The translations under genes were made by a program, and so were the position numbers. The notes under the pieces are model-generated. The model ran no database searches. It saw only the letters and a program-made list of their open reading frames with translations, and had not been told where the DNA came from. Shown here piece after piece: positions 1-7,395 of a DNA stretch of 7,395 bases (the stretch's first letter is position 1; each line of letters opens with the position of its first letter). Origin of the DNA: Bacillota bacterium (GTDB lineage Bacteria > Bacillota_E > Sulfobacillia > Sulfobacillales > Sulfobacillaceae); assembly GCA_021820165.1 (NCBI GenBank), contig JAKADW010000094.1, positions 1 to 7,395 of the forward strand, written 5' to 3'.

Positions 1-72
1 GTGTCCATGGGCGGTGCGGCGGCCGTCAAAGCGGTGGGATTGTTGAACCGTTTGGCCAAAAGCTCGGCATGA
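1..72 (+). CDS. C-terminal end of a probable HdrA-like flavoprotein (partial)
   Basis: Frame 1 is open from the first base and ends at TGA 70-72, giving the last 23 residues of a gene that begins outside the window. The tail is rich in Ala and Gly with the pattern S-x-G-G-A-A-A-x-K-A-x-x-L-L-x-R. This resembles the C-terminal helix of HdrA-type flavoproteins, which follows the IPD(S/T)V segment. The position fits too, because in sHdr operons hdrA lies directly before the 'hyp' gene and the later HdrC/HdrB subunits. In this family HdrA is the FAD-containing core subunit of the cytoplasmic complex. The next gene starts within its stop codon (ATGATG at 69-74), which points to translational coupling. 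With only 23 residues the identity is an inference from pattern and context. That a coding frame ends here is much safer. Confidence 0.5.
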   Translation: MSMGGAAAVKAVGLLNRLAKSSA

Positions 73-779
73 TGGCGCCCGGGCCGCGGGGGAAGCCGCC
101 GCTCATTGACGCCGAGGTGCTGCGAGAGTTTTTTGAAAAGGCCGAGATGTATCTGACGCCTGAATTTCAGGCCAAGTTATCTCAAGACCTTGACGCCCGG
201 TGCCGCATTGTCGCCCAGCGATTCCCGGAATTTCCGGAGCTCTGGGATTTGGCCCCGGCGACCCGCCGGCTCTCCCGAGACGACCGCGAGCGTCTCGGGC
301 CGTCCTTGGCCGATCTCCGGCAAAGTATCAGCGAGGGTCACATCCAGGGTGTGCTCGACCACCTGGCGGCATGGCCATCTCCACCGCCGTGGCTTCTGGA
401 TTGGGCCACATTTTGGATGAGCCTCGTCAACCCGGAAATGCTCTGGTGGGCTCGGTGGGTTTATGGACCGGTCTCCGAGACGGGAGCCCTGGTTCTCCTG
501 GTAGACAATCCCGTCTCGTTGAAACAAGACGGGGTCCGGGAGACCTATCGCGCACTCTCCGATGCGACGGAGTATCTGCGGGTGTTGCTCGCCAGCACGC
601 GCTCGCTTTCGGGGATTTCGGAGGTCTTTCAACCGCAGGTGACCTTGGCGGTGGTGTACACGGTGTACATGTTTACGATGGCCTCTTGGAAGCTGACCGA
701 GGAATTCACCCAGGTACTGCCGCCCTTTCCGGTCGTTGTGCGCACGTTGCTTGGGGTCAATCGATGGGAGGGAAAGTAA
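69..779 (+). CDS. Unknown protein in the position of the sHdr 'hyp' gene
   Basis: A 236-residue protein that I do not recognise from sequence. It has no Cys-rich cluster motif, no signal peptide and no clear nucleotide-binding motif. The N-terminal half is charged and helical. The middle (about residues 103-135) is rich in Trp and aromatics, with two adjacent Trp pairs or near-pairs. A moderately hydrophobic aromatic stretch lies at about 193-210 and could be a buried helix or a membrane-touching one. It sits exactly between the probable hdrA tail and the HdrCB fusion. Described sHdr operons carry a conserved 'hyp' gene at that place, so by position it is probably that subunit or accessory factor. 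ATG 69 and ATG 72 are both possible starts. They overlap the upstream TGA and there is no good Shine-Dalgarno, so coupled translation is likely. It ends at TAA 777-779, directly abutting the next start. The coding call is firm; the functional one is positional only. Confidence 0.75.
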   Translation: MMAPGPRGKPPLIDAEVLREFFEKAEMYLTPEFQAKLSQDLDARCRIVAQRFPEFPELWDLAPATRRLSRDDRERLGPSLADLRQSISEGHIQGVLDHLAAWPSPPPWLLDWATFWMSLVNPEMLWWARWVYGPVSETGALVLLVDNPVSLKQDGVRETYRALSDATEYLRVLLASTRSLSGISEVFQPQVTLAVVYTVYMFTMASWKLTEEFTQVLPPFPVVVRTLLGVNRWEGK

Positions 780-2060
780 GTGAGTCAAAAAGCCACCCCG
801 ATCGAGCTCGAAGTTGCGGTTGTCAATGGGGTTGAACTGAATGGCCATTGGAACCGGATATTTGAGCCGCGGGTGATTTCAGAGTATGACTTGTCGATGC
901 TAGACGAGGTCAGCGAAATTCCCGGGGCGGAGTCGTTAGCCTATTGCTATCAGTGTGGAAAGTGCACCTCGGTATGCCCGGTGGAGGAGGCTGGCGGCGA
1001 CTATTCGCCGCGTAAGGTCTTTCGCCGCACGCAGTTGGGCGCGTCGCTCCTGGAGAGTGCGGACTTATGGTTATGCACCACCTGTTCGGATTGTCTTCGG
1101 GTGTGTCCCAAAGAAGTCAACATGATTAGCATTATGCCAGCCGTCCGGGAACGGGCGGTCATGGATGGCAACGCCCCCGCGGAGCTCTTGTCAGCCTTTG
1201 AGAACACGGCGCGCTACGGCAACCCTCTAGGGGAGCCGGCCCGTAAGCGCGCGGAGTGGACTAAGAACGCGGGTGTGCCGGTGCCGATTATGAGCCAGCA
1301 TAAAGCCCCGGTGGATGTGCTGTGGTTCGTGGAATGTTATCCCGCCTACCACCCCCGCGGTAAAGAAGCCTCCGTCGCCTTGGCCCGGATTTTGAATCAG
1401 CTCGGGGTGGACTTCGGCATCTTGGGTAACGAAGAAAAGTGCTCGGGCGACTCGCAGCGAATGGCGGGCGAGGCGGGGCTCTTTGAGATGCTAGCGGAGG
1501 ATAACATTAAGAGCTTATCCAAGTATACGTTCAACACCCTCATGGTCACCGATCCGCATGCCTTCAACGCCTTCTTGCACGAGTACCCTAAGTTCGGGGG
1601 CGAGTGGCCCACCTTTCACTACACGCAGTTTCTCGCGCCGAAAATCCATGAGATGACCTTCTCCGTGCCGATCGACCGGACGGTCACGTTTCATGACCCC
1701 TGCTATCTCGGCCGCCACAATGGCGAATACGAAGCGCCACGGGAACTCTTGCACGCCATTCCCGGTCTAGAGGTCATTGAGATGGGCCGCTGCCGGGAGA
1801 ACTCCTATTGCTGCGGTGGCGGCGGCGGAGGCATGTGGATGGACAGCTTTACCTCGGAGCGGCTGACCATGCGTTTATCTGAGCGCCGGGTCAAGGAAGC
1901 GGTGGAGTCCGGCGCCGACATTTTGGCGGTCACCTGTCCCTATGAGGTGTCACGCTTTGAAGATGCCGTCAAGAACACGGGCAACGCGGGCAAGTTGAAG
2001 GTTCTCGATATTGCCGAACTGTTGGCCCACGCCATGGGCTTGGTGACGGCCAATATTTGA
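780..2060 (+). CDS. HdrC-HdrB fusion subunit of an sHdr-like complex (HdrB3-like)
   Basis: A 426-residue iron-sulfur protein joining an HdrC-type ferredoxin domain to an HdrB-type CCG domain pair. Residues 56-67 (CYQCGKCTSVCP) and 99-110 (CTTCSDCLRVCP) are two textbook [4Fe-4S] sites. The first CCG half has C186 and C221 (C-S-G-D, not C-C-G). Where a CPxC motif is expected it reads D258-P-H-A261, so that site is degenerate. The second half is nearly complete: C308, C344-C345 followed by a run of six glycines, and C386-P-Y-E389, where Glu replaces the last Cys. HdrB proteins use CCG motifs for noncubane [4Fe-4S] clusters that act on disulfides. Here one such site probably remains, possibly altered. 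The GTG start at 780 abuts the upstream TAA and has GGGAGGG about 8 bases before it. The protein also resembles the C-terminal part of EtfD/GlpC-like oxidoreductases. The operon with lipoate carriers favours an sHdr subunit that transfers electrons or binds substrate in the cytoplasm. Confidence 0.88.
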   Translation: MSQKATPIELEVAVVNGVELNGHWNRIFEPRVISEYDLSMLDEVSEIPGAESLAYCYQCGKCTSVCPVEEAGGDYSPRKVFRRTQLGASLLESADLWLCTTCSDCLRVCPKEVNMISIMPAVRERAVMDGNAPAELLSAFENTARYGNPLGEPARKRAEWTKNAGVPVPIMSQHKAPVDVLWFVECYPAYHPRGKEASVALARILNQLGVDFGILGNEEKCSGDSQRMAGEAGLFEMLAEDNIKSLSKYTFNTLMVTDPHAFNAFLHEYPKFGGEWPTFHYTQFLAPKIHEMTFSVPIDRTVTFHDPCYLGRHNGEYEAPRELLHAIPGLEVIEMGRCRENSYCCGGGGGGMWMDSFTSERLTMRLSERRVKEAVESGADILAVTCPYEVSRFEDAVKNTGNAGKLKVLDIAELLAHAMGLVTANI

Positions 2061-2061
2061 T

Positions 2062-2070
2062 GGGGGAGGA
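2062..2070 (+). promoter_or_regulatory. Strong ribosome binding site setting the first lbpA start
   Basis: GGGGGAGGA lies 6 bases before GTG 2077, the right distance for a Shine-Dalgarno. A closer ATG at 2072 opens only a two-codon frame (ATG TTG TGA), so GTG 2077 is the real start. Confidence 0.75.
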
Positions 2071-2076
2071 TATGTT

Positions 2077-2520
2077 GTGAGCGAGGTAAACGGATGTTTA
2101 TTGCCCGATGACCTCTGGTATTGGCCGGAGAAACATGTGTGGGTGAGGGGGCCGGAGGCCGATGGCACTGTTCTGGTGGGCATGACGGACGTCGCTCAGC
2201 ATCTCGCGGGAAAAATCGTGGTGGTCAATCTGAAGGCGCCGGGCCGAACGCTCGCGCAGGGAAAGAGTGCAGGAACCTTGGAGAGCGGCAAGTGGGTGGG
2301 TTCGATCCCCACCCCGGTGGCCGGTCAGGTGACGGAGATTAACGAAACCGTTAAAAAGACCCCGGCAATTGTGAACGAGGATCCCTATGGGGCGGGGTGG
2401 CTTATTCGAGTGCGCCCGGACAACTGGGAGGAAGGGGCGCGCATCCTGGTCACGGGCCCCGATGGCATCGCTGCCTACCGGGCTAAGCTCGAGGCCGAGG
2501 GGATTCAGTGTCAGTCCTGA
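2077..2520 (+). CDS. lbpA: GcvH-like lipoate-binding protein LbpA (first copy)
   Basis: A 147-residue small soluble protein with the lipoyl (GcvH-like) fold. The lipoylation motif is E69-S-G-K72-W-V-G, with Lys72 as the expected attachment residue. It is followed by P-T-P-V-A-G, matching the beta-hairpin of lipoyl domains. The W-V-G after the lysine, and D-P-Y-G-A-G-W-L at 102-109, are features I associate with LbpA of sulfur oxidisers, not glycine-cleavage GcvH. In that family the lipoamide arm carries sulfur intermediates for the sHdr complex. There is a Cys near each end, C7 and C145. No glycine cleavage genes (gcvT, gcvP) are visible here. The downstream ligase and the HdrCB neighbour support the sulfur role. 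A second, diverged copy follows after a 20-base gap. GTG start with a strong Shine-Dalgarno. Confidence 0.9.
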   Translation: MSEVNGCLLPDDLWYWPEKHVWVRGPEADGTVLVGMTDVAQHLAGKIVVVNLKAPGRTLAQGKSAGTLESGKWVGSIPTPVAGQVTEINETVKKTPAIVNEDPYGAGWLIRVRPDNWEEGARILVTGPDGIAAYRAKLEAEGIQCQS

Positions 2521-2540
2521 GTGTGTAAGGGGGTGAGTCC

Positions 2541-3032
2541 GTGGCCTATGTGTTTGCCTGTGAGTTGCCAGACCATTTATGGTTCGACGTCGACCGCGAT
2601 GTTTGGGTCGAGGAACGCTCGGACGGCACGGTACGCATGGGCATGACGGATCCGGCACAAACGCGGGCGGGCCGCATTCTGTTCGTCCGGGCGCGAGCCG
2701 GAAAACGCGTGCCGCAAGGAAAGAGCGTCGCCACGGTGGAAAGCGCCAAATGGGTAGGGCCGGTTCCGTCTCCCCTGACGGGGACGGTGACTCAGGCGAA
2801 TCCCGAGGTCCTCGCCGATCCCAACATCATTAACCGTGATCCCTATGTTTCGGGATGGTTGGTGGAGTTTCGTCCTGAGATCCCGTTGTCAGAATCGGGC
2901 CTCTTGCGAGGCGAACCTGCCCAAGCGGCCTATCGCCAAAAATTGAAGGCGGAAGGGCTGACCTGTATGCGCTGTGCGGATCTACCGGAGGCCGCCGAAG
3001 GTCCTGAGTCTGGTTCAACCTTTAACCTTTAA
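2541..3032 (+). CDS. lbpA: GcvH-like lipoate-binding protein LbpA (second copy, CxxC tail)
   Basis: A 163-residue paralogue of the preceding gene; by eye about half the residues align as identical. The lipoylation motif is E67-S-A-K70-W-V-G, with Lys70 as the modified residue, followed by P-S-P-L-T-G. D100-P-Y-x-S-G-W-L matches the conserved C-terminal part of the domain. C7 is shared with the first copy. The C-terminal extension is about 18 residues longer and carries C142-M-R-C145, whereas the first copy has a single Cys at the matching place. Conserved surface residues differ between the copies, so they may dock different partners. Both are probably charged by the ligase that follows. The GTG start at 2541 has AAGGGGGTG 5 bases upstream. 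It ends at TAA 3030-3032. I see no sign of decay: the frame is full length and the lipoyl lysine is intact. Confidence 0.88.
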   Translation: MAYVFACELPDHLWFDVDRDVWVEERSDGTVRMGMTDPAQTRAGRILFVRARAGKRVPQGKSVATVESAKWVGPVPSPLTGTVTQANPEVLADPNIINRDPYVSGWLVEFRPEIPLSESGLLRGEPAQAAYRQKLKAEGLTCMRCADLPEAAEGPESGSTFNL

Positions 3033-3056
3033 CGTCTGAACAGAAGGAAGGATACG

Positions 3057-4121
3057 ATGCGCTACCTCAATCTTGGCACCGTTTCCGCTGAGGAATCGCA
3101 GGCGATCTATCATGCCCTGGCGGACTTGATGACCCCGGATGCCCCGGTGACGCTCGTCACCGTGAGTCCGGACCGTCCCTACGTGTGTGTGGGGTACCAC
3201 CAGGTAGCGAGCCGGGAAATAGACCAACCCTATTGTGAGGCACAGGGTATTCCCGTAGGACGGCGCATGGTTGGGGGTGGCGCCGTGTGGCTTGATCATG
3301 ATCAGATTTTCTGGCACTTGATTATGCCACGCCAACATCTACCCGTCGAAGCCCTCTACAGAAAATATCTCTCGGCCCCCGTCGAAGCCTACCGCCAGAT
3401 GGGAATCTTAGCCGAACATCGCCCGGTCAATGATATCGTCGTGGGCTCCCGCAAAATTGGCGGGACGGGTGCCAATACCATGGGCGAAGCCGATGTCTTG
3501 GTGGGGAGCATCATGATGGACTTCGATACGGCGGCCATGGCGCGGGTACTGAACGTACCCTCCGAGAAATTTCGCGACAAGATGGTCTCCTCGCTTGAGG
3601 ACTACATGACCACCGTGCGGCGTGAACTCGGGGATATGAGTCCGTCGCGCGAGGAAGCGACGCAAATGTTGGTGCAGGCGTTTGCGACCCTTTTAGGGGA
3701 GCCGGTGGTGACCGATCATCTGACCGAGCGGGAGCGCGAACGGTTGGACGATTACCGTACCCGTCTTTTTGACCCGGCCTTTGTGTATCGCCATGAAGGC
3801 TATTTGCAGCCGGGCGTCAAGATTAAAGATGGGGTGCGGCTTTTAGAAGGGATGAAAAAAGCGCCCGGTGGACTGGTGCGGGTGGTGTGGCGCGAATCGG
3901 AGGGTCGCATCGATGACATCGTCATTGGTGGGGACTTCTTTGTCCATCCCTCCGAGGGCTTAAGTGCGGTGGAGGCGCGGCTCCGGGGGCAACCGGCAGA
4001 TGTCGAGAGCTTCCGCCGGGCTCTATCCACCGGATGGGCGACACTGGATGTGCCCGGCGTATCCGCGGATGACGTGACTCTGGCCTTTGAAGCGAGTCAC
4101 TCGCTTGAGCCCGTGCCCTAA
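3057..4121 (+). CDS. lplA: Lipoate-protein ligase (LplA-like) with C-terminal accessory domain
   Basis: A 354-residue enzyme of the biotin/lipoate A/B ligase family. R69-R-x-x-G-G-G-A-V (69-77) is the lipoate/adenylate-binding loop. S131-R-K133-I-G-G-T-G carries the catalytic lysine of LplA enzymes, and N125-D-I lies before it as expected. After about residue 240 there is an accessory domain like the C-terminal domain of E. coli LplA (or LplB), including G-V-K-I-K-D-G and G-G-D-F-F-V-H-P. Such ligases activate lipoate (or octanoate) with ATP and attach it to a lysine of an acceptor domain. Position directly after the two lipoate carriers makes them the likely substrates, as described for the sulfur-oxidiser-specific ligase sLpl. 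Whether the substrate is lipoate or octanoate cannot be read from sequence. The ATG at 3057 has AGAAGGAAGGA 5 bases before it. The preceding gap is 24 bases. Confidence 0.88.
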   Translation: MRYLNLGTVSAEESQAIYHALADLMTPDAPVTLVTVSPDRPYVCVGYHQVASREIDQPYCEAQGIPVGRRMVGGGAVWLDHDQIFWHLIMPRQHLPVEALYRKYLSAPVEAYRQMGILAEHRPVNDIVVGSRKIGGTGANTMGEADVLVGSIMMDFDTAAMARVLNVPSEKFRDKMVSSLEDYMTTVRRELGDMSPSREEATQMLVQAFATLLGEPVVTDHLTERERERLDDYRTRLFDPAFVYRHEGYLQPGVKIKDGVRLLEGMKKAPGGLVRVVWRESEGRIDDIVIGGDFFVHPSEGLSAVEARLRGQPADVESFRRALSTGWATLDVPGVSADDVTLAFEASHSLEPVP

Positions 4122-4145
4122 CCGCACCGTTCTTTCGCGCATTCC

Positions 4146-4159
4146 AAGGAAGGGAGGGA
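4146..4159 (+). promoter_or_regulatory. Ribosome binding site of tusA in the largest intergenic gap
   Basis: The purine-rich run contains GGGAGGG at 4152-4158, 7 bases before ATG 4166. An out-of-frame ATG at 4161 is too close to it and stops after ten codons, so 4166 is the start. The rest of the gap (4122-4165) shows no terminator hairpin or clear promoter. Confidence 0.7.
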
Positions 4160-4165
4160 AATGAC

Positions 4166-4405
4166 ATGGAACAGGAAGCGATTGCGCTGGTGATCGACGC
4201 CAAGGGTCTCGCGTGCCCGATGCCGATTTTTAAGGCTAAGCAAGGCTTGAAGTCGGTGGACATTGGGCAGGTGGTCGAAGTGGTGTGTACCGACCCCGGA
4301 TCGATGGCCGACTTCAAAGCCTTTGCCAACTCCACCGGCCACGAGCTGTTAGCGGCCGAACAACAGGATAATCTCTACCGCTTTTTGTTGCGGCGTACCA
4401 AATAG
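4166..4405 (+). CDS. tusA: Sulfur carrier protein TusA
   Basis: A 79-residue protein of the TusA (SirA/YhhP) family, full length for the family. The signature G14-L-A-C17-P-M-P20 includes Cys17, the residue that carries a persulfide in TusA proteins. D11 before it and K23/K25 after it fit the family pattern. A second Cys, C41, lies in the central beta strand. In sulfur oxidisers TusA receives sulfane sulfur, from rhodaneses or DsrE-type proteins, and delivers it to the cytoplasmic oxidation machinery. The dsrE-family gene directly downstream and the lipoate carriers upstream support that role here over tRNA thiolation. It ends at TAG 4403-4405. Confidence 0.93.
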   Translation: MEQEAIALVIDAKGLACPMPIFKAKQGLKSVDIGQVVEVVCTDPGSMADFKAFANSTGHELLAAEQQDNLYRFLLRRTK

Positions 4406-4419
4406 TGAGGACAGGAACA

Positions 4420-4426
4420 GGGGGAG
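4420..4426 (+). promoter_or_regulatory. Ribosome binding site deciding the dsrE-like start
   Basis: GGGGGAG lies 5 bases before GTG 4432. The alternative GTG at 4405, overlapping the tusA stop, has no Shine-Dalgarno and would add nine residues rich in Gly, Arg and Thr that do not look like part of the fold. Confidence 0.65.
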
Positions 4427-4431
4427 AAGAC

Positions 4432-4812
4432 GTGGCAGAGGAAACGAAAAAGTATCTCTATCTGGTAACCCATGGAACGGAAACGCCGGAGCGCTCCGCG
4501 TCGCCGTTTTTTCTGGCGACCACGGCAGCGCTCATGGATCACGAATCCACCATGGTGTTTACCATCACCGCCACCAGTTTGTTAAAGAAGGGCGTTGCCG
4601 AAAACCTTCACATTAAGGAGACGGGCGAGAGTTCGACACTTAAGTTCTTCATCGATCAGGCCCGCGAGGCTGGGGTGAAATTGTACGTGTGTGCGCCAAG
4701 CCTCGATCTCAACAATTGCACCATCGATGACCTCATTGAGGTCGACGGTGTAGTGGGAGGCACGGCGTTGAACGAAATGGCGGCCGAGGCGGACGTCGTC
4801 ATCACATTTTGA
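4432..4812 (+). CDS. DsrE-family sulfur transfer protein
   Basis: With the GTG 4432 start the protein has 126 residues, usual for the DsrE/DsrF-like family. It opens with a beta strand and the T-H-G-T-E segment (13-17), followed by the P-F-F-L-A-T-x-A-A-L helix near residues 25-34. The strand V82-K-L-Y-V-C87 ends in the conserved-position cysteine that carries persulfide in DsrE-type sulfurtransferases. C96 follows nine residues later. The C-terminal part, D104-G-V-V-G-G-T, with a final hydrophobic strand, also fits. These proteins exchange sulfur with TusA, and tusA-dsrE pairs are common in sHdr and Dsr sulfur oxidisers, so this is the likely partner of the gene upstream. I cannot place it firmly in a DsrE subgroup (E2, E3 and so on). 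It lacks the N-terminal membrane segments of DsrE2. An upstream in-frame GTG at 4405 would give 135 residues. Its stop TGA 4810-4812 overlaps the next ATG by one base. Confidence 0.85.
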   Translation: MAEETKKYLYLVTHGTETPERSASPFFLATTAALMDHESTMVFTITATSLLKKGVAENLHIKETGESSTLKFFIDQAREAGVKLYVCAPSLDLNNCTIDDLIEVDGVVGGTALNEMAAEADVVITF

Positions 4813-5342
4813 TGGCGGACGTGAACCGTCTATGGCGAGATGTACTGCGCCTGAACTCCCGGTCGCAGGATGCGGAGGTCGAAGCCCTGGTGGTTCAATG
4901 TCTCGATTTCGAGGGACCCTGGACCACCCGCCTTATCGGCGCCCTCGGCATTTTACGAGAGCGTCTGGGTCCGTGGGCCGGCGTGAGTCTCTATATGCCC
5001 ACCAAGCCCCAGGGCGACCTTTATGTGGCCGCGTCTGCCGGAACCGTCGGGCCCCTCGTCGTGGCATGGGGGGCTCCGGTCGCCGGATTGGCGGCGTCGG
5101 AGCGCACCGCCCAGTTTTGTGCGGAAGCTCGGTCCTTTCCGGACTATCAAGGGGGATGGCTTGGCATTCAGGGCGTATTGGCGGTGCCGATTGTGCGCGG
5201 GTCCGATTTTTACGGGGTGCTGGAAGCCCGTGGGCACGAGGGTCACACGTTTGGCATGGCTGAGGCAGAAGTGACCGGGCACATGGCCAGTCTCATGGCT
5301 GAGCGCTGGCCGACATCGACGAGACACAAGATGGGAGGATAA
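4812..5342 (+). CDS. GAF-domain-like protein of unknown role
   Basis: A 176-residue soluble protein with one GAF-like domain. W55-A-G-V-S-L-Y (55-61), F109-P-D-Y, V122-L-A-V-P-I-V and F133-Y-G-V-L-E-A follow the strand pattern of free-methionine-(R)-sulfoxide reductases and related GAF proteins. The cysteines those enzymes use are absent from the expected places: the region near 80-95 has none, and G114-G-W-L-G-I stands where the conserved 'ACD' is found. The only cysteines are C30 and C103. It is therefore unlikely to be an active methionine sulfoxide reductase of that type, and may be a ligand or redox sensor or a structural partner. ATG 4812 overlaps the upstream stop (TGATG) with no clear Shine-Dalgarno, so translation is probably coupled to the dsrE-like gene. 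It lies 3 bases before etfB. The function is not assigned. Confidence 0.7.
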   Translation: MADVNRLWRDVLRLNSRSQDAEVEALVVQCLDFEGPWTTRLIGALGILRERLGPWAGVSLYMPTKPQGDLYVAASAGTVGPLVVAWGAPVAGLAASERTAQFCAEARSFPDYQGGWLGIQGVLAVPIVRGSDFYGVLEARGHEGHTFGMAEAEVTGHMASLMAERWPTSTRHKMGG

Positions 5343-5345
5343 ACG

Positions 5346-6107
5346 GTGAAAATTGTCGTGTTGATGAAAGACGTTCCTGATCTGGTCGACGAATTGGAAG
5401 TCGAAGATGGGGTGTTAGCCCTCGAGGATATGACGTTTGTGCCCAGTGAGTGGGATGACCAGGCCTTGGAAGAAGCGCTCTTGATTAAAGAAGAGGAAGG
5501 GGCCGACGTTTTCGTGGCCGCCATCGATACCGGGGATGTGGATACCATGCTGTACACGGCCTTGGCGAAGGGCGCCGATCAGGCGGTGAAAATCGTCGGC
5601 GACTTTTCCCGCACCTTGACCAACCGGGAGCGGGCTAAACTGTTCGCCGACTTTCTCCGAACCGCATCGGCGGACCTAGTGTTGACCGGTGTGCAGGCGA
5701 TTGACGACTTAGACGGCCAGATCGCCGGGTTGGTGGCCGGTGCGCTCGGCGTGGTGCATGCCTCGGTAGTGCGCGACGTCCACACGGCTGACGGTCAAGT
5801 GCAGTTCATCCAAGAATACTCCGGTGGTCGGATGGCGGAGTTTTCGGCCAAGACGCCGGCGTTGCTGGGCGTCCAAGCGGCCCGTAAACCGCCCCGGTAT
5901 GTGACCATTGCCAAGGTGCGGCAAGTCCAAAAGTCCGGGGAAATCACGGAAGTGGAGGGGAATCTCACGGAAACCCCCACGTTAGCCGTCCGCCGGGTGT
6001 ATCAGCCGGTCGCGCAGGGCCACGCCGAAATGTGGGGCGATGACGTGGATGAGGTGGCGGAGAACATCATTCGTCTGTTGGAAGACAAAAAGCTCTTAAG
6101 GGGTTGA
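5346..6107 (+). CDS. etfB: Electron transfer flavoprotein beta subunit EtfB
   Basis: A 253-residue protein of the usual length for EtfB. The start M-K-I-V-V-L-M-K-D-V-P-D is the canonical first strand. W36-D-D-Q-A-L-E-E-A-L matches the helix after the 'NPxD' region. G115-V-Q-A-I-D-D-L-D-G-Q125 is the EtfB nucleotide-binding signature. K181-P-P-R-Y-V-T-I-A-K is the late conserved segment, followed by a C-terminal arm that wraps EtfA. EtfB and EtfA form a heterodimer carrying FAD, which moves electrons between dehydrogenases and a membrane quinone reductase. In this operon the donor is probably the sHdr complex. GTG 5346 has GGGAGGA 6 bases upstream. Its TGA overlaps the next ATG by one base, the usual arrangement for subunits made in equal amounts. 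Confidence 0.95.
   Translation: MKIVVLMKDVPDLVDELEVEDGVLALEDMTFVPSEWDDQALEEALLIKEEEGADVFVAAIDTGDVDTMLYTALAKGADQAVKIVGDFSRTLTNRERAKLFADFLRTASADLVLTGVQAIDDLDGQIAGLVAGALGVVHASVVRDVHTADGQVQFIQEYSGGRMAEFSAKTPALLGVQAARKPPRYVTIAKVRQVQKSGEITEVEGNLTETPTLAVRRVYQPVAQGHAEMWGDDVDEVAENIIRLLEDKKLLRG
6098..6103 (+). promoter_or_regulatory. Ribosome binding site of etfA inside the end of etfB
   Basis: AAGGGG lies 3 bases before ATG 6107 and 9 bases before ATG 6113. The spacing favours 6113, while the TGATG overlap with the etfB stop favours 6107. The two differ by only two residues. Confidence 0.5.
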
Positions 6108-7072
6108 TGCAAATGGGGAAAATCATAGTCTTGGCGGAATTTGCGGAAGGAGCCCTCGCGGACGCCACACGAGAGCTCTTGACACGGGCCCGGGACATTG
6201 CCTCCGCTGCGGGTCACACGGTGACGGTAGTCGCCTTCGGTGACCAGGCTCGGGACGGGGTGCGCGAGGTGGACGCCGATGAGGCGGTGATTATCTCAGG
6301 ACCCACGGTGGCGACGTATCATCCGGAAACCTATGAACGCGCGATAGGGGAGGTGCTATCCGACGACACCGCATTGGTCATGGTGAGCAACACCACCATG
6401 GGCATGGATCTGGGGGCGTCTTTAGCTGCCCGTCAAAATCTGCCCATGGTCGCCTATTGCACCGACTTAGTCCTCGAGGATGGAACCTTAGTGGCCACCA
6501 GTCAGGTTTATGGCGGCAAGCTAAACGCGGAAGTGGAGGTTCCACTAACAGGCGCGGTGGTGACCGTCATCCCCGGGTCCTGGCCGAGTGACCCATCCCG
6601 ACGGGGAACGCCGGCGATTCGGGAACAAGCGGCTCCGTCCCCGGAGGCTCTCGAGTTGCGACGGGTGATTGAGGCCGAATCGGGGCAAGACGTGGATATT
6701 ACCAAGGCGGACATCTTAGTCAGCGTGGGGCGTGGTATCGAGGATCCAGATAATTTAGAGCTGGCCGACGAATTGGCGGAAGCGATTGGCGGCGTGGTGA
6801 GCTGTTCCCGACCGGTGGTCGATGCCGGATGGTTGCCGCGCTCGCGCCAAGTGGGCAAGTCCGGCAAGACGGTGAAGCCCAAAGTCTATTTGGCCCTCGG
6901 CATTAGCGGCGCCCCCGAGCATTTGCAGGGGATGAAGGATGCGGAACTCATCATCGCCGTCAATAATGATGAGCGGGCTCCGATTTTCGACGTGGCTCAC
7001 TTTGGAGCGACCGCGGACATTTTAGACCTCATGCCGGCCTTAGCGGAAAAGCTCACGGGGAGGGCAGGATAG
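6107..7072 (+). CDS. etfA: Electron transfer flavoprotein alpha subunit EtfA
   Basis: A 321-residue EtfA of typical length, counted from ATG 6107; ATG 6113 is an equally good start. The N-terminal half (about 1-180) is the EtfA/EtfB-like domain, opening with G-K-I-I-V-L-A-E. The C-terminal FAD domain starts near A201-D-I-L-V-S-V-G-R-G. It contains S234-R-P-V-V-D-A-G, Q248-V-G-K-S-G-K, G265-I-S-G-A-P-E-H-L-Q-G-M and A291-P-I-F-D-V-A-H-F-G. These are the classical FAD-contacting motifs. The usual Q-V-G-Q-T-G reads Q-V-G-K-S-G here, and the usual I-Q-H-L reads P-E-H-L, so this is a diverged branch. It pairs with EtfB and passes electrons to the EtfD-like protein that follows. The stop TAG 7070-7072 overlaps the next GTG by one base, again suggesting coupling. 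Confidence 0.95.
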   Translation: MQMGKIIVLAEFAEGALADATRELLTRARDIASAAGHTVTVVAFGDQARDGVREVDADEAVIISGPTVATYHPETYERAIGEVLSDDTALVMVSNTTMGMDLGASLAARQNLPMVAYCTDLVLEDGTLVATSQVYGGKLNAEVEVPLTGAVVTVIPGSWPSDPSRRGTPAIREQAAPSPEALELRRVIEAESGQDVDITKADILVSVGRGIEDPDNLELADELAEAIGGVVSCSRPVVDAGWLPRSRQVGKSGKTVKPKVYLALGISGAPEHLQGMKDAELIIAVNNDERAPIFDVAHFGATADILDLMPALAEKLTGRAG

Positions 7073-7395
7073 TGATATTGCGAACCGGGCTGATGGCCAT
7101 GACCGTGGCCATGATGGTTGTGAGTGTGGCCCTCTTTCTTCGCCGGGTGCTCGCCATTCAGGCGGTTATGAAAACAGCCCGGCCTGCCAATAGGACCGAC
7201 CAGATCGGTCGGCGGTTGAAGTCGGTGGTGGAACACGTGGTGTTCCACCGCCGCATGCTCCGCATTACCCTCTCGGGGGTTCTGCACTATTTCATCTTCA
7301 GTGGCTTTGTAATTTTGCTGATTGATATCGTGGAAACGGTCGGGGAAATTTTCTTCCCCGGATTTACCGTTGGTCCCATTTTGGCCCCCTTGGTC
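7072..7395 (+). CDS. EtfD-like membrane ETF:quinone oxidoreductase, N-terminal part (runs off the window)
   Basis: An open frame from GTG 7072 to the window end gives 108 residues without a stop. GGGGAGG at 7057-7063 lies 8 bases before the start. Residues about 5-22 form one hydrophobic segment and about 69-88 a second. Between them is a basic loop, D43-Q-I-G-R-R-L-K, then H60-type residues leading into L71-H-Y-F-I-F-S-G-F. This pattern matches the N-terminal NarI-like membrane domain of large fused iron-sulfur proteins (EtfD, sometimes called EMO), in which a cytoplasmic [4Fe-4S]/CCG part follows. Such proteins pass electrons from EtfBA to menaquinone. H72 is a possible haem ligand. The iron-sulfur part lies beyond the window, so the full identity is inferred from the N-terminus and from its place directly after etfA. 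Confidence 0.75.
   Translation, partial: MILRTGLMAMTVAMMVVSVALFLRRVLAIQAVMKTARPANRTDQIGRRLKSVVEHVVFHRRMLRITLSGVLHYFIFSGFVILLIDIVETVGEIFFPGFTVGPILAPLV
7224..7252 (+). repeat. Inverted repeat forming a strong hairpin inside the EtfD-like gene
   Basis: GGTGGAACAC (7227-7236) is followed by the loop GTG and by its exact reverse complement GTGTTCCACC (7240-7249). The stem extends by a T-G wobble and two G-C pairs to 7224/7252. It lies about 150 bases after the start codon and codes for V-V-E-H-V-V-F-H-R. No T-run follows, so it is not a classical terminator. The structure is certain in sequence; its function is unknown. Confidence 0.5.

Follow-up and report, generated by a model that had tools for sequence, protein, structure and literature searches.

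A type II sHdr operon of the Sulfobacillus lineage with an apparently chimeric HdrB3 and a predicted ETF:menaquinone reductase

Introduction

Where do the electrons go when a sulfur-oxidizing heterodisulfide reductase-like (sHdr) system is encoded together with an electron-transfer flavoprotein (ETF)? This question is raised by a stretch of 7,395 nucleotides from a Bacillota bacterium (contig JAKADW010000094.1), hereafter the window, which, judged by its gene content, belongs to a type II sHdr operon of the Sulfobacillus lineage and extends from the last codons of hdrA into the first part of etfD. ETF passes electrons to EtfD-type reductases, and these pass them to menaquinone. We propose, with a probability of roughly 0.7, that EtfBA shuttles electrons from sHdr via HdrB3 to the membrane protein EtfD and from there to menaquinone. 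Four genes carry the argument:

780..2060, + strand: HdrB3, 426 aa, with an sHdrC2-like N-terminus (to about residue 90–110) and an EtfD-type dicluster/CCG module
5346..6107, + strand: EtfB, without the bifurcation/NAD-site residues
6104..7072, + strand: EtfA, in an sHdr-specific clade
7072..7395, + strand: start of EtfD, first 108 codons, with H72 and F79 present

Composition of HdrB3

The two parts of HdrB3 resemble different proteins. The first 90–110 residues resemble sHdrC2, and the remainder resembles the soluble wing of EtfD, with a median of 265 bits against at most 13.4 bits for sHdrB2 in the 20 closest copies. For HdrB-type sHdrB2, the C-terminal part scores 10.0 and 12.5 bits, against 212–308 bits for EtfD. 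In a tree thinned by omitting the rows of loci L004, L019, L027, L034, L051, L061 and L080, this part forms a clade with the operon's own EtfD (support 100/98). In a separate analysis, a topology grouping HdrB3 with both soluble proteins of loci L208 and L209 gave a p value of 0.141 in the approximately unbiased test (p-AU). HdrB3 has the site of one histidine-ligated CCG cluster, which corresponds to D2 of the solved EtfD and is predicted to serve electron transfer, and no complete D1 site. By these comparisons, HdrB3 looks like a chimera of an sHdrC2-like N-terminus and an EtfD-type module, and not like a plain sHdrC2–sHdrB2 fusion. A preliminary description of this DNA had called it an HdrCB fusion, a label that fits the shape of the protein but misleads about its ancestry, as the C-terminal part sides with EtfD and not with sHdrB2.

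The type I clusters (shdrC1B1AHC2B2) of S. benefaciens and S. thermotolerans (L090 and L091) contain related HdrC1, HdrB1, HdrA and LbpA proteins and a weakly matching sHdrH (39–43 bits). Unlike the window, they have a separate sHdrC2 and an HdrB-type sHdrB2. Within the 17.5–18 kb examined, they gave no match to EtfB or EtfA, and the EtfD-profile matches are limited to HdrC/HdrB subunits. S. benefaciens AMDSBA1 and S. thermotolerans each carry both type I and type II clusters, a natural pair for comparing electron acceptors. The protein search with sHdrC2 returned 11 proteins. A type I cluster of Pseudomonadota, sought on plasmids with HdrB1, HdrA and sHdrC2, was not found there; HdrB1 gave matches on three Acidithiobacillus plasmids, and the other matches were distant. 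The Acidithiobacillus ferrooxidans plasmid pACF1 (L089:3150-4490) bears a solitary sHdrB1-like gene (53%), in whose vicinity lie a GcvH-like gene, two hemerythrin-domain genes and a thioredoxin-family gene; no other sHdr subunit is annotated in the 13.4 kb inspected.

Ligands of EtfD

The window part of EtfD shows the first haem histidine, H72, and the remaining gene lies outside the window. Full-length EtfD (675 aa) from Sulfobacillus harzensis (L001), the nearest genome found, matches Mycobacterium smegmatis EtfD (PDB 9ojn) at an E value of 1.6e-85. The cryo-EM structure of the mycobacterial protein was published in 2026 (EMBO J, PMC13083937), and we mapped the ligands listed there onto 60 sHdr EtfD sequences of at least 600 residues. 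The haem b histidines H72 and H231, the eight cubane cysteines and five of the six D2 ligands (His499, C549, C584, C585 and C624) are kept in 60/60, and the sixth, Cys712, is Asp in all 60. The haem arginines are kept in 60/60, 37/60 and 60/60, and the quinone phenylalanines in 47/60 each. In place of the four cysteines of the linear [3Fe-4S] cluster D1, all 60 sequences have D, N, D and S/T. FadF and DgcB likewise have no D1, and ETF may hand its electrons to them at D2 (PMC13083937); therefore, D1 does not define the EtfD family.

With mycobacterial EtfD, FadF and DgcB, the window-type EtfD has in common the haem b ligands, the cubanes D3 and D4, the His-ligated D2 and the proposed ETF-to-menaquinone wire (PMC13083937). 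It differs in forming its own clade and in belonging to a sulfur-oxidation operon, where it is accompanied by a soluble paralogue. The EtfD of the window is thus predicted to be a membrane ETF:menaquinone reductase. MenD scores over the cut-off in 6/6 related genomes, and futalosine menaquinone genes were found in 0/6.

Linkage of EtfBA and EtfD

Genome contigs were scanned with HdrB3, and the best 80 loci out of 220 relatives were kept, so that the loci are selected by HdrB3. They come from Bacillota, Bacteroidota, Chloroflexota, Planctomycetota, Armatimonadota, Actinomycetota, Calditrichia and unplaced metagenome-assembled genomes (MAGs), and their neighbourhoods were read with profiles built from the window and L001. 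EtfD lies directly 3′ of EtfA in 66 of 81 loci (65 of these best 80, and the window). The contig ends at EtfA in three loci, and EtfA was not seen in 12, whose contigs stop at most 3.7 kb from HdrB3; none of the 81 has sequence beyond EtfA and yet no EtfD. EtfD adjoining EtfA is thus general in this sample. EtfB is just 5′ of EtfA in 68/69, the exception being L057, with 6.2 kb between them. The EtfA start lies at most 2 kb from HdrB3 in 41/69 and farther away in 28/69; therefore, the EtfBA–EtfD block stays together while its position changes.

The etfB–etfA gap of L057 (L057:12037-18237, bacterium QQ.bins.54) holds a YeeE/YedE-type (PF04143) sulfur-transport protein, a protein with a 5′-nucleotidase C-terminal domain and a SoxB-like look, and a beta-propeller protein; SoxT is described as absent from type II genomes (PMC11582611). 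A further module, with no sHdr genes nearby (L209:8081-16580, genome G011), encodes a soluble EtfD-like protein, EtfB, EtfA, EtfD, HdrA and an Oxidored_q6 protein, which we read as a putative hydrogenase-type small subunit. It looks as though the same output module had here been attached to a different Hdr donor, in parallel to type II, and H2 or another donor would possibly feed quinone through it.

Proposed electron path and alternatives

In the path that we propose, TusA and DsrE would deliver sulfane sulfur, and the sHdr core (C1, B1, A, H and B3) with lipoylated LbpA would oxidize it to sulfite, a chemistry that we infer here from type I systems. The electrons would exit through HdrB3, with its sHdrC2-like N-terminus joining it to the core. 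EtfBA, presumably docking on HdrB3, would take electrons from the EtfD-type module and hand them to the homologous module of EtfD. Within EtfD, they would pass from D2 to the cubanes D3 and D4, then to haem b and finally to menaquinone. The preliminary description had read the gene order as such a path; the order gives no direction of electron flow.

Several points weigh against this path. The replacement of Cys712, by Asp in EtfD and by Glu in HdrB3, holds throughout, so the cluster is not quite that of 9ojn, and one haem arginine and the quinone phenylalanines are not kept in every EtfD. The sisterhood of HdrB3 and EtfD hangs on distant, long-branched outgroups, with a p-AU of just 0.033 for the rival topology. 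The type I sHdrB2/C2 comparison draws on two clusters from Sulfobacillus and otherwise on database proteins, most of them without a name. The structural lead of EtfD over HdrB is partly a matter of length, because HdrB spans the CCG part only, and D1 is also lost in the unrelated paralogue L106, in FadF and in DgcB (PMC13083937), so its loss is no proof of kinship. No experiment on type II sHdr was found in the openly licensed literature searched. Lastly, EtfBA could draw its electrons from LbpA or HdrA and not from HdrB3.

This last point defines the alternative that survives best, namely that EtfBA is reduced directly by dihydrolipoyl-LbpA or HdrA, with HdrB3 as an internal relay and the step from EtfD to menaquinone unchanged. 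It agrees with the presence of the LbpA and ETF genes in one operon and with the two or three LbpA proteins reported for the group (PMC6067878), but it offers no reason why an EtfD-type module should replace sHdrB2 where etfBA–etfD is present, and in the two type I clusters analysed sHdrB2 is HdrB-type and etfBA is absent. We regard direct reduction as possible, though rather unlikely.

A second alternative is that the ETF is bifurcating or confurcating and NAD-linked, so that the electrons would go to NADH, either alone or alongside quinone. NADH is discussed for type I systems. The best PDB match of EtfA, 5ol2_A (6.6e-51), which we take to be part of a clostridial bifurcating complex, is in keeping with this alternative; it is tied with the 3clu/1o94 ETF. 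The best match of EtfB, in contrast, is 1o94_C, presumably the non-bifurcating W3A1 ETF. We also compared sHdr EtfB with two ETFs assumed to be bifurcating, at the positions that we take to form their NAD/beta-FAD site. Among 70 sHdr EtfB proteins, 2 retain Thr94, and Asp takes the place of Gly123 in 69 and of Thr125 in 66; the site residues are thus missing, whereas 4 of 14 same-genome EtfB paralogues keep the ADTLAT motif. The EtfA match to 5ol2 counts against menaquinone as the acceptor, and losing the known NAD motif is no proof of lost NAD binding. We consider an NAD-linked ETF improbable. The window EtfA falls into a clade of 28 rows (27 from sHdr loci and one from the second G011 module) with support of 100/100, and 14 other same-genome EtfA paralogues fall outside it. 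Quinone and not NADH had been argued for from the outset. The constancy of EtfD with its quinone-reductase ligands and the EtfB residues favour that view, which nevertheless stays a prediction from sequence.

Following the published wording (PMC11582611), HdrB3 could also be a plain fusion of sHdrC2 and sHdrB2 with a catalytic CCG part, EtfBA and EtfD being mere neighbours. The N-terminus does match sHdrC2 and the domain order is HdrC/HdrB-like in both halves, but the tests of the C-terminal part given above already disfavour a plain fusion, and we hold it to be very improbable. Least probable of all is a reverse chain, in which menaquinol electrons would reduce a disulfide or sulfur compound via EtfD and EtfBA: ETF and CCG proteins can in principle work in both directions and many hosts are MAGs without known physiology, but sulfur oxidation by Sulfobacillus is well documented (PMC4378227), the type I sHdr of Hyphomicrobium makes sulfite from thiosulfate (PMC10332631) and an SQR-like gene lies downstream in L001.

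Relation to described clusters

The cluster itself is not new, and its gene set has been published. Justice et al. (2014; PMC4378227) described an Hdr cluster II in every Sulfobacillus genome that they studied, with many subunits of cluster I (HdrA, HdrB, HdrC, DsrE, TusA, glycine cleavage H protein and lipoate ligase). Added to these are ETF genes and an extended 'hdrC' that encodes two CCG domains and six transmembrane helices, these three genes being syntenous; a cluster IIb is reported for AMDSBA3 (L005 of the present loci). The window comes from a different relative (HdrB3 94% identical to that of S. harzensis), and the membrane protein named HdrC there is assigned here to the EtfD family and mapped on a solved structure. 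Cao (2018; PMC6067878) described clusters of group III from Firmicutes and Actinobacteria that include EtfBA and two or three LbpA. A 19-gene cluster of Thermomicrobium roseum (PMC6776052), from another phylum than the window and known here from its description only, contains hdrABC, etfAB, tusA, two dsrE and three lbpA, and was 45-fold up on average in nutrient-limited persistence. The preliminary description regarded the electron acceptor as little explored; the link to the ETF genes is already present in PMC4378227, PMC6067878 and PMC11582611.

The type II label given to the cluster, by contrast, agrees with its gene content. Type II sHdr is defined as shdrC1B1AHB3 with etfAB (PMC11582611), and all parts were found, the upstream ones via L001. 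The window has the hdrA end and sHdrH, and L001 has shdrC1, shdrB1, shdrA and shdrH in order in one cluster; HdrB3 replaces separate C2 and B2; etfAB spans 5346–7072; and two linked lbpA copies encode the lipoyl lysine. The definition as worded there omits EtfD, which in the loci examined is as constant as etfAB.

Operon layout and remaining genes

All genes of the window are on the + strand, separated by −4 to 44 nt, and together the features listed account for 98.6% of its length. The promoter scan found 2 promoters, against 2.0 in shuffled sequence, and the terminator scan 5 terminators, against 6.9. Ten window proteins were scanned against Pfam and NCBIfam; the Pfam matches are Fer4 and CCG (HdrB3), GCV_H twice, LplA, TusA, DsrE, ETF, and ETF with ETF_alpha. 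Besides the four genes given above, the window contains:

1..72, + strand: 3′ end of hdrA, last 23 codons and stop; frame 1 reads VSMGGAAAVKAVGLLNRLAKSSA, then the stop, nearly the HdrA C-terminus of L001
69..779, + strand: sHdrH (the 'hyp' of shdrC1B1AH), 236 aa, 72% identical to the L001 copy
2077..2520, + strand: lipoate-binding protein LbpA1 (GCV_H, 121 bits; LbpA tree)
2541..3032, + strand: lipoate-binding protein LbpA2 (GCV_H, 101 bits; LbpA tree)
3057..4121, + strand: lipoate-protein ligase with catalytic and C-terminal domains as in sLpl(AB) (LplA-B_cat, Lip_prot_lig_C; 81% to L001)
4166..4405, + strand: TusA sulfur carrier (TusA, 80 bits; Cys17 in CPMP)
4405..4812, + strand: DsrE-family sulfur transferase (DsrE, 60.5 bits)
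4809..5342, + strand: GAF-like protein (GAF_2, 26.1 bits, under the Pfam cut-off of 28.6)

Taken as a whole, the operon first reported is confirmed, with every gene found, on one strand and tightly packed, and its interpretation is supported in part. The HdrA-like tail is present in bases 1–72 only, and the open frame 3–779 is that of sHdrH; sHdrH and the GAF-like protein had been overlooked. The grouping of EtfA and of both LbpA with sHdr-linked proteins, apart from same-genome ETF paralogues and from glycine cleavage proteins, bears the interpretation out, as do the upstream genes of L001, which are sHdr-type subunits, and the EtfD next to EtfA with its quinone-reductase ligands.

In the LbpA tree (46 rows), both window proteins fall into a set of 31 rows with type I and other sHdr LbpA (support 97/98), and seven GcvH rows of the same genomes fall apart from it. 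Of 33 rows labelled sHdr, 26 are in this set, six (the second LbpA of Bacteroidota and others) form a separate group and the last, L023_Lbp3, has the sequence of a GcvH and was mislabelled. All 46 rows retain the lipoyl Lys, and LipA was found in 6/6 related genomes. sHdrH gave no match in the Pfam and NCBIfam scans; its AlphaFold2 model is confident (mean predicted local distance difference test score 94) and mainly helical, and the fold search gave no PDB match at E ≤ 0.001. W130, G139, Y197, Y200, P218, L228 and G229 are invariant in 37 sHdrH sequences. The true start of DsrE is perhaps slightly downstream, many relatives having about 127 aa. The GAF-like protein is present in 24/81 sequences (window counted), all from Bacillota, and immediately 3′ of DsrE in all 24.

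Genes up- and downstream of the window were taken from relatives, chiefly L001, in which six proteins other than HdrB3 are 72–91% identical to those of the window. There, the operon starts, in order, with DsrE2-like, HdrC1, HdrB1, HdrA and sHdrH, and EtfD is followed by DsrE, TusA and an SQR-like flavoprotein; the '-like' names are used because the NCBIfam scores are under the curated cut-offs. In sHdrB1 (L001:7016-8218), H75, H76, H84, H149, H156, H193, H221, H225, H276 and H308 are invariant in 65/65, besides the cysteines.

Implications

We see about even odds that type II arose when the soluble wing of an ETF:quinone reductase was duplicated and took the place of sHdrB2; HdrB3 would then be the donor and EtfD the acceptor on one dedicated ETF, with quinone as the built-in acceptor. 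Neither the chimera nor this two-module idea was found in print in the openly licensed literature, subscription papers not being covered. The published description of HdrB3 is put in question, and the membrane protein is assigned to the EtfD family. With the chimeric HdrB3, the constant EtfD and the residue map, the mere presence of ETF genes nearby becomes a set of named ligands and a pair of partners, which makes the electron acceptor of type II sHdr testable.

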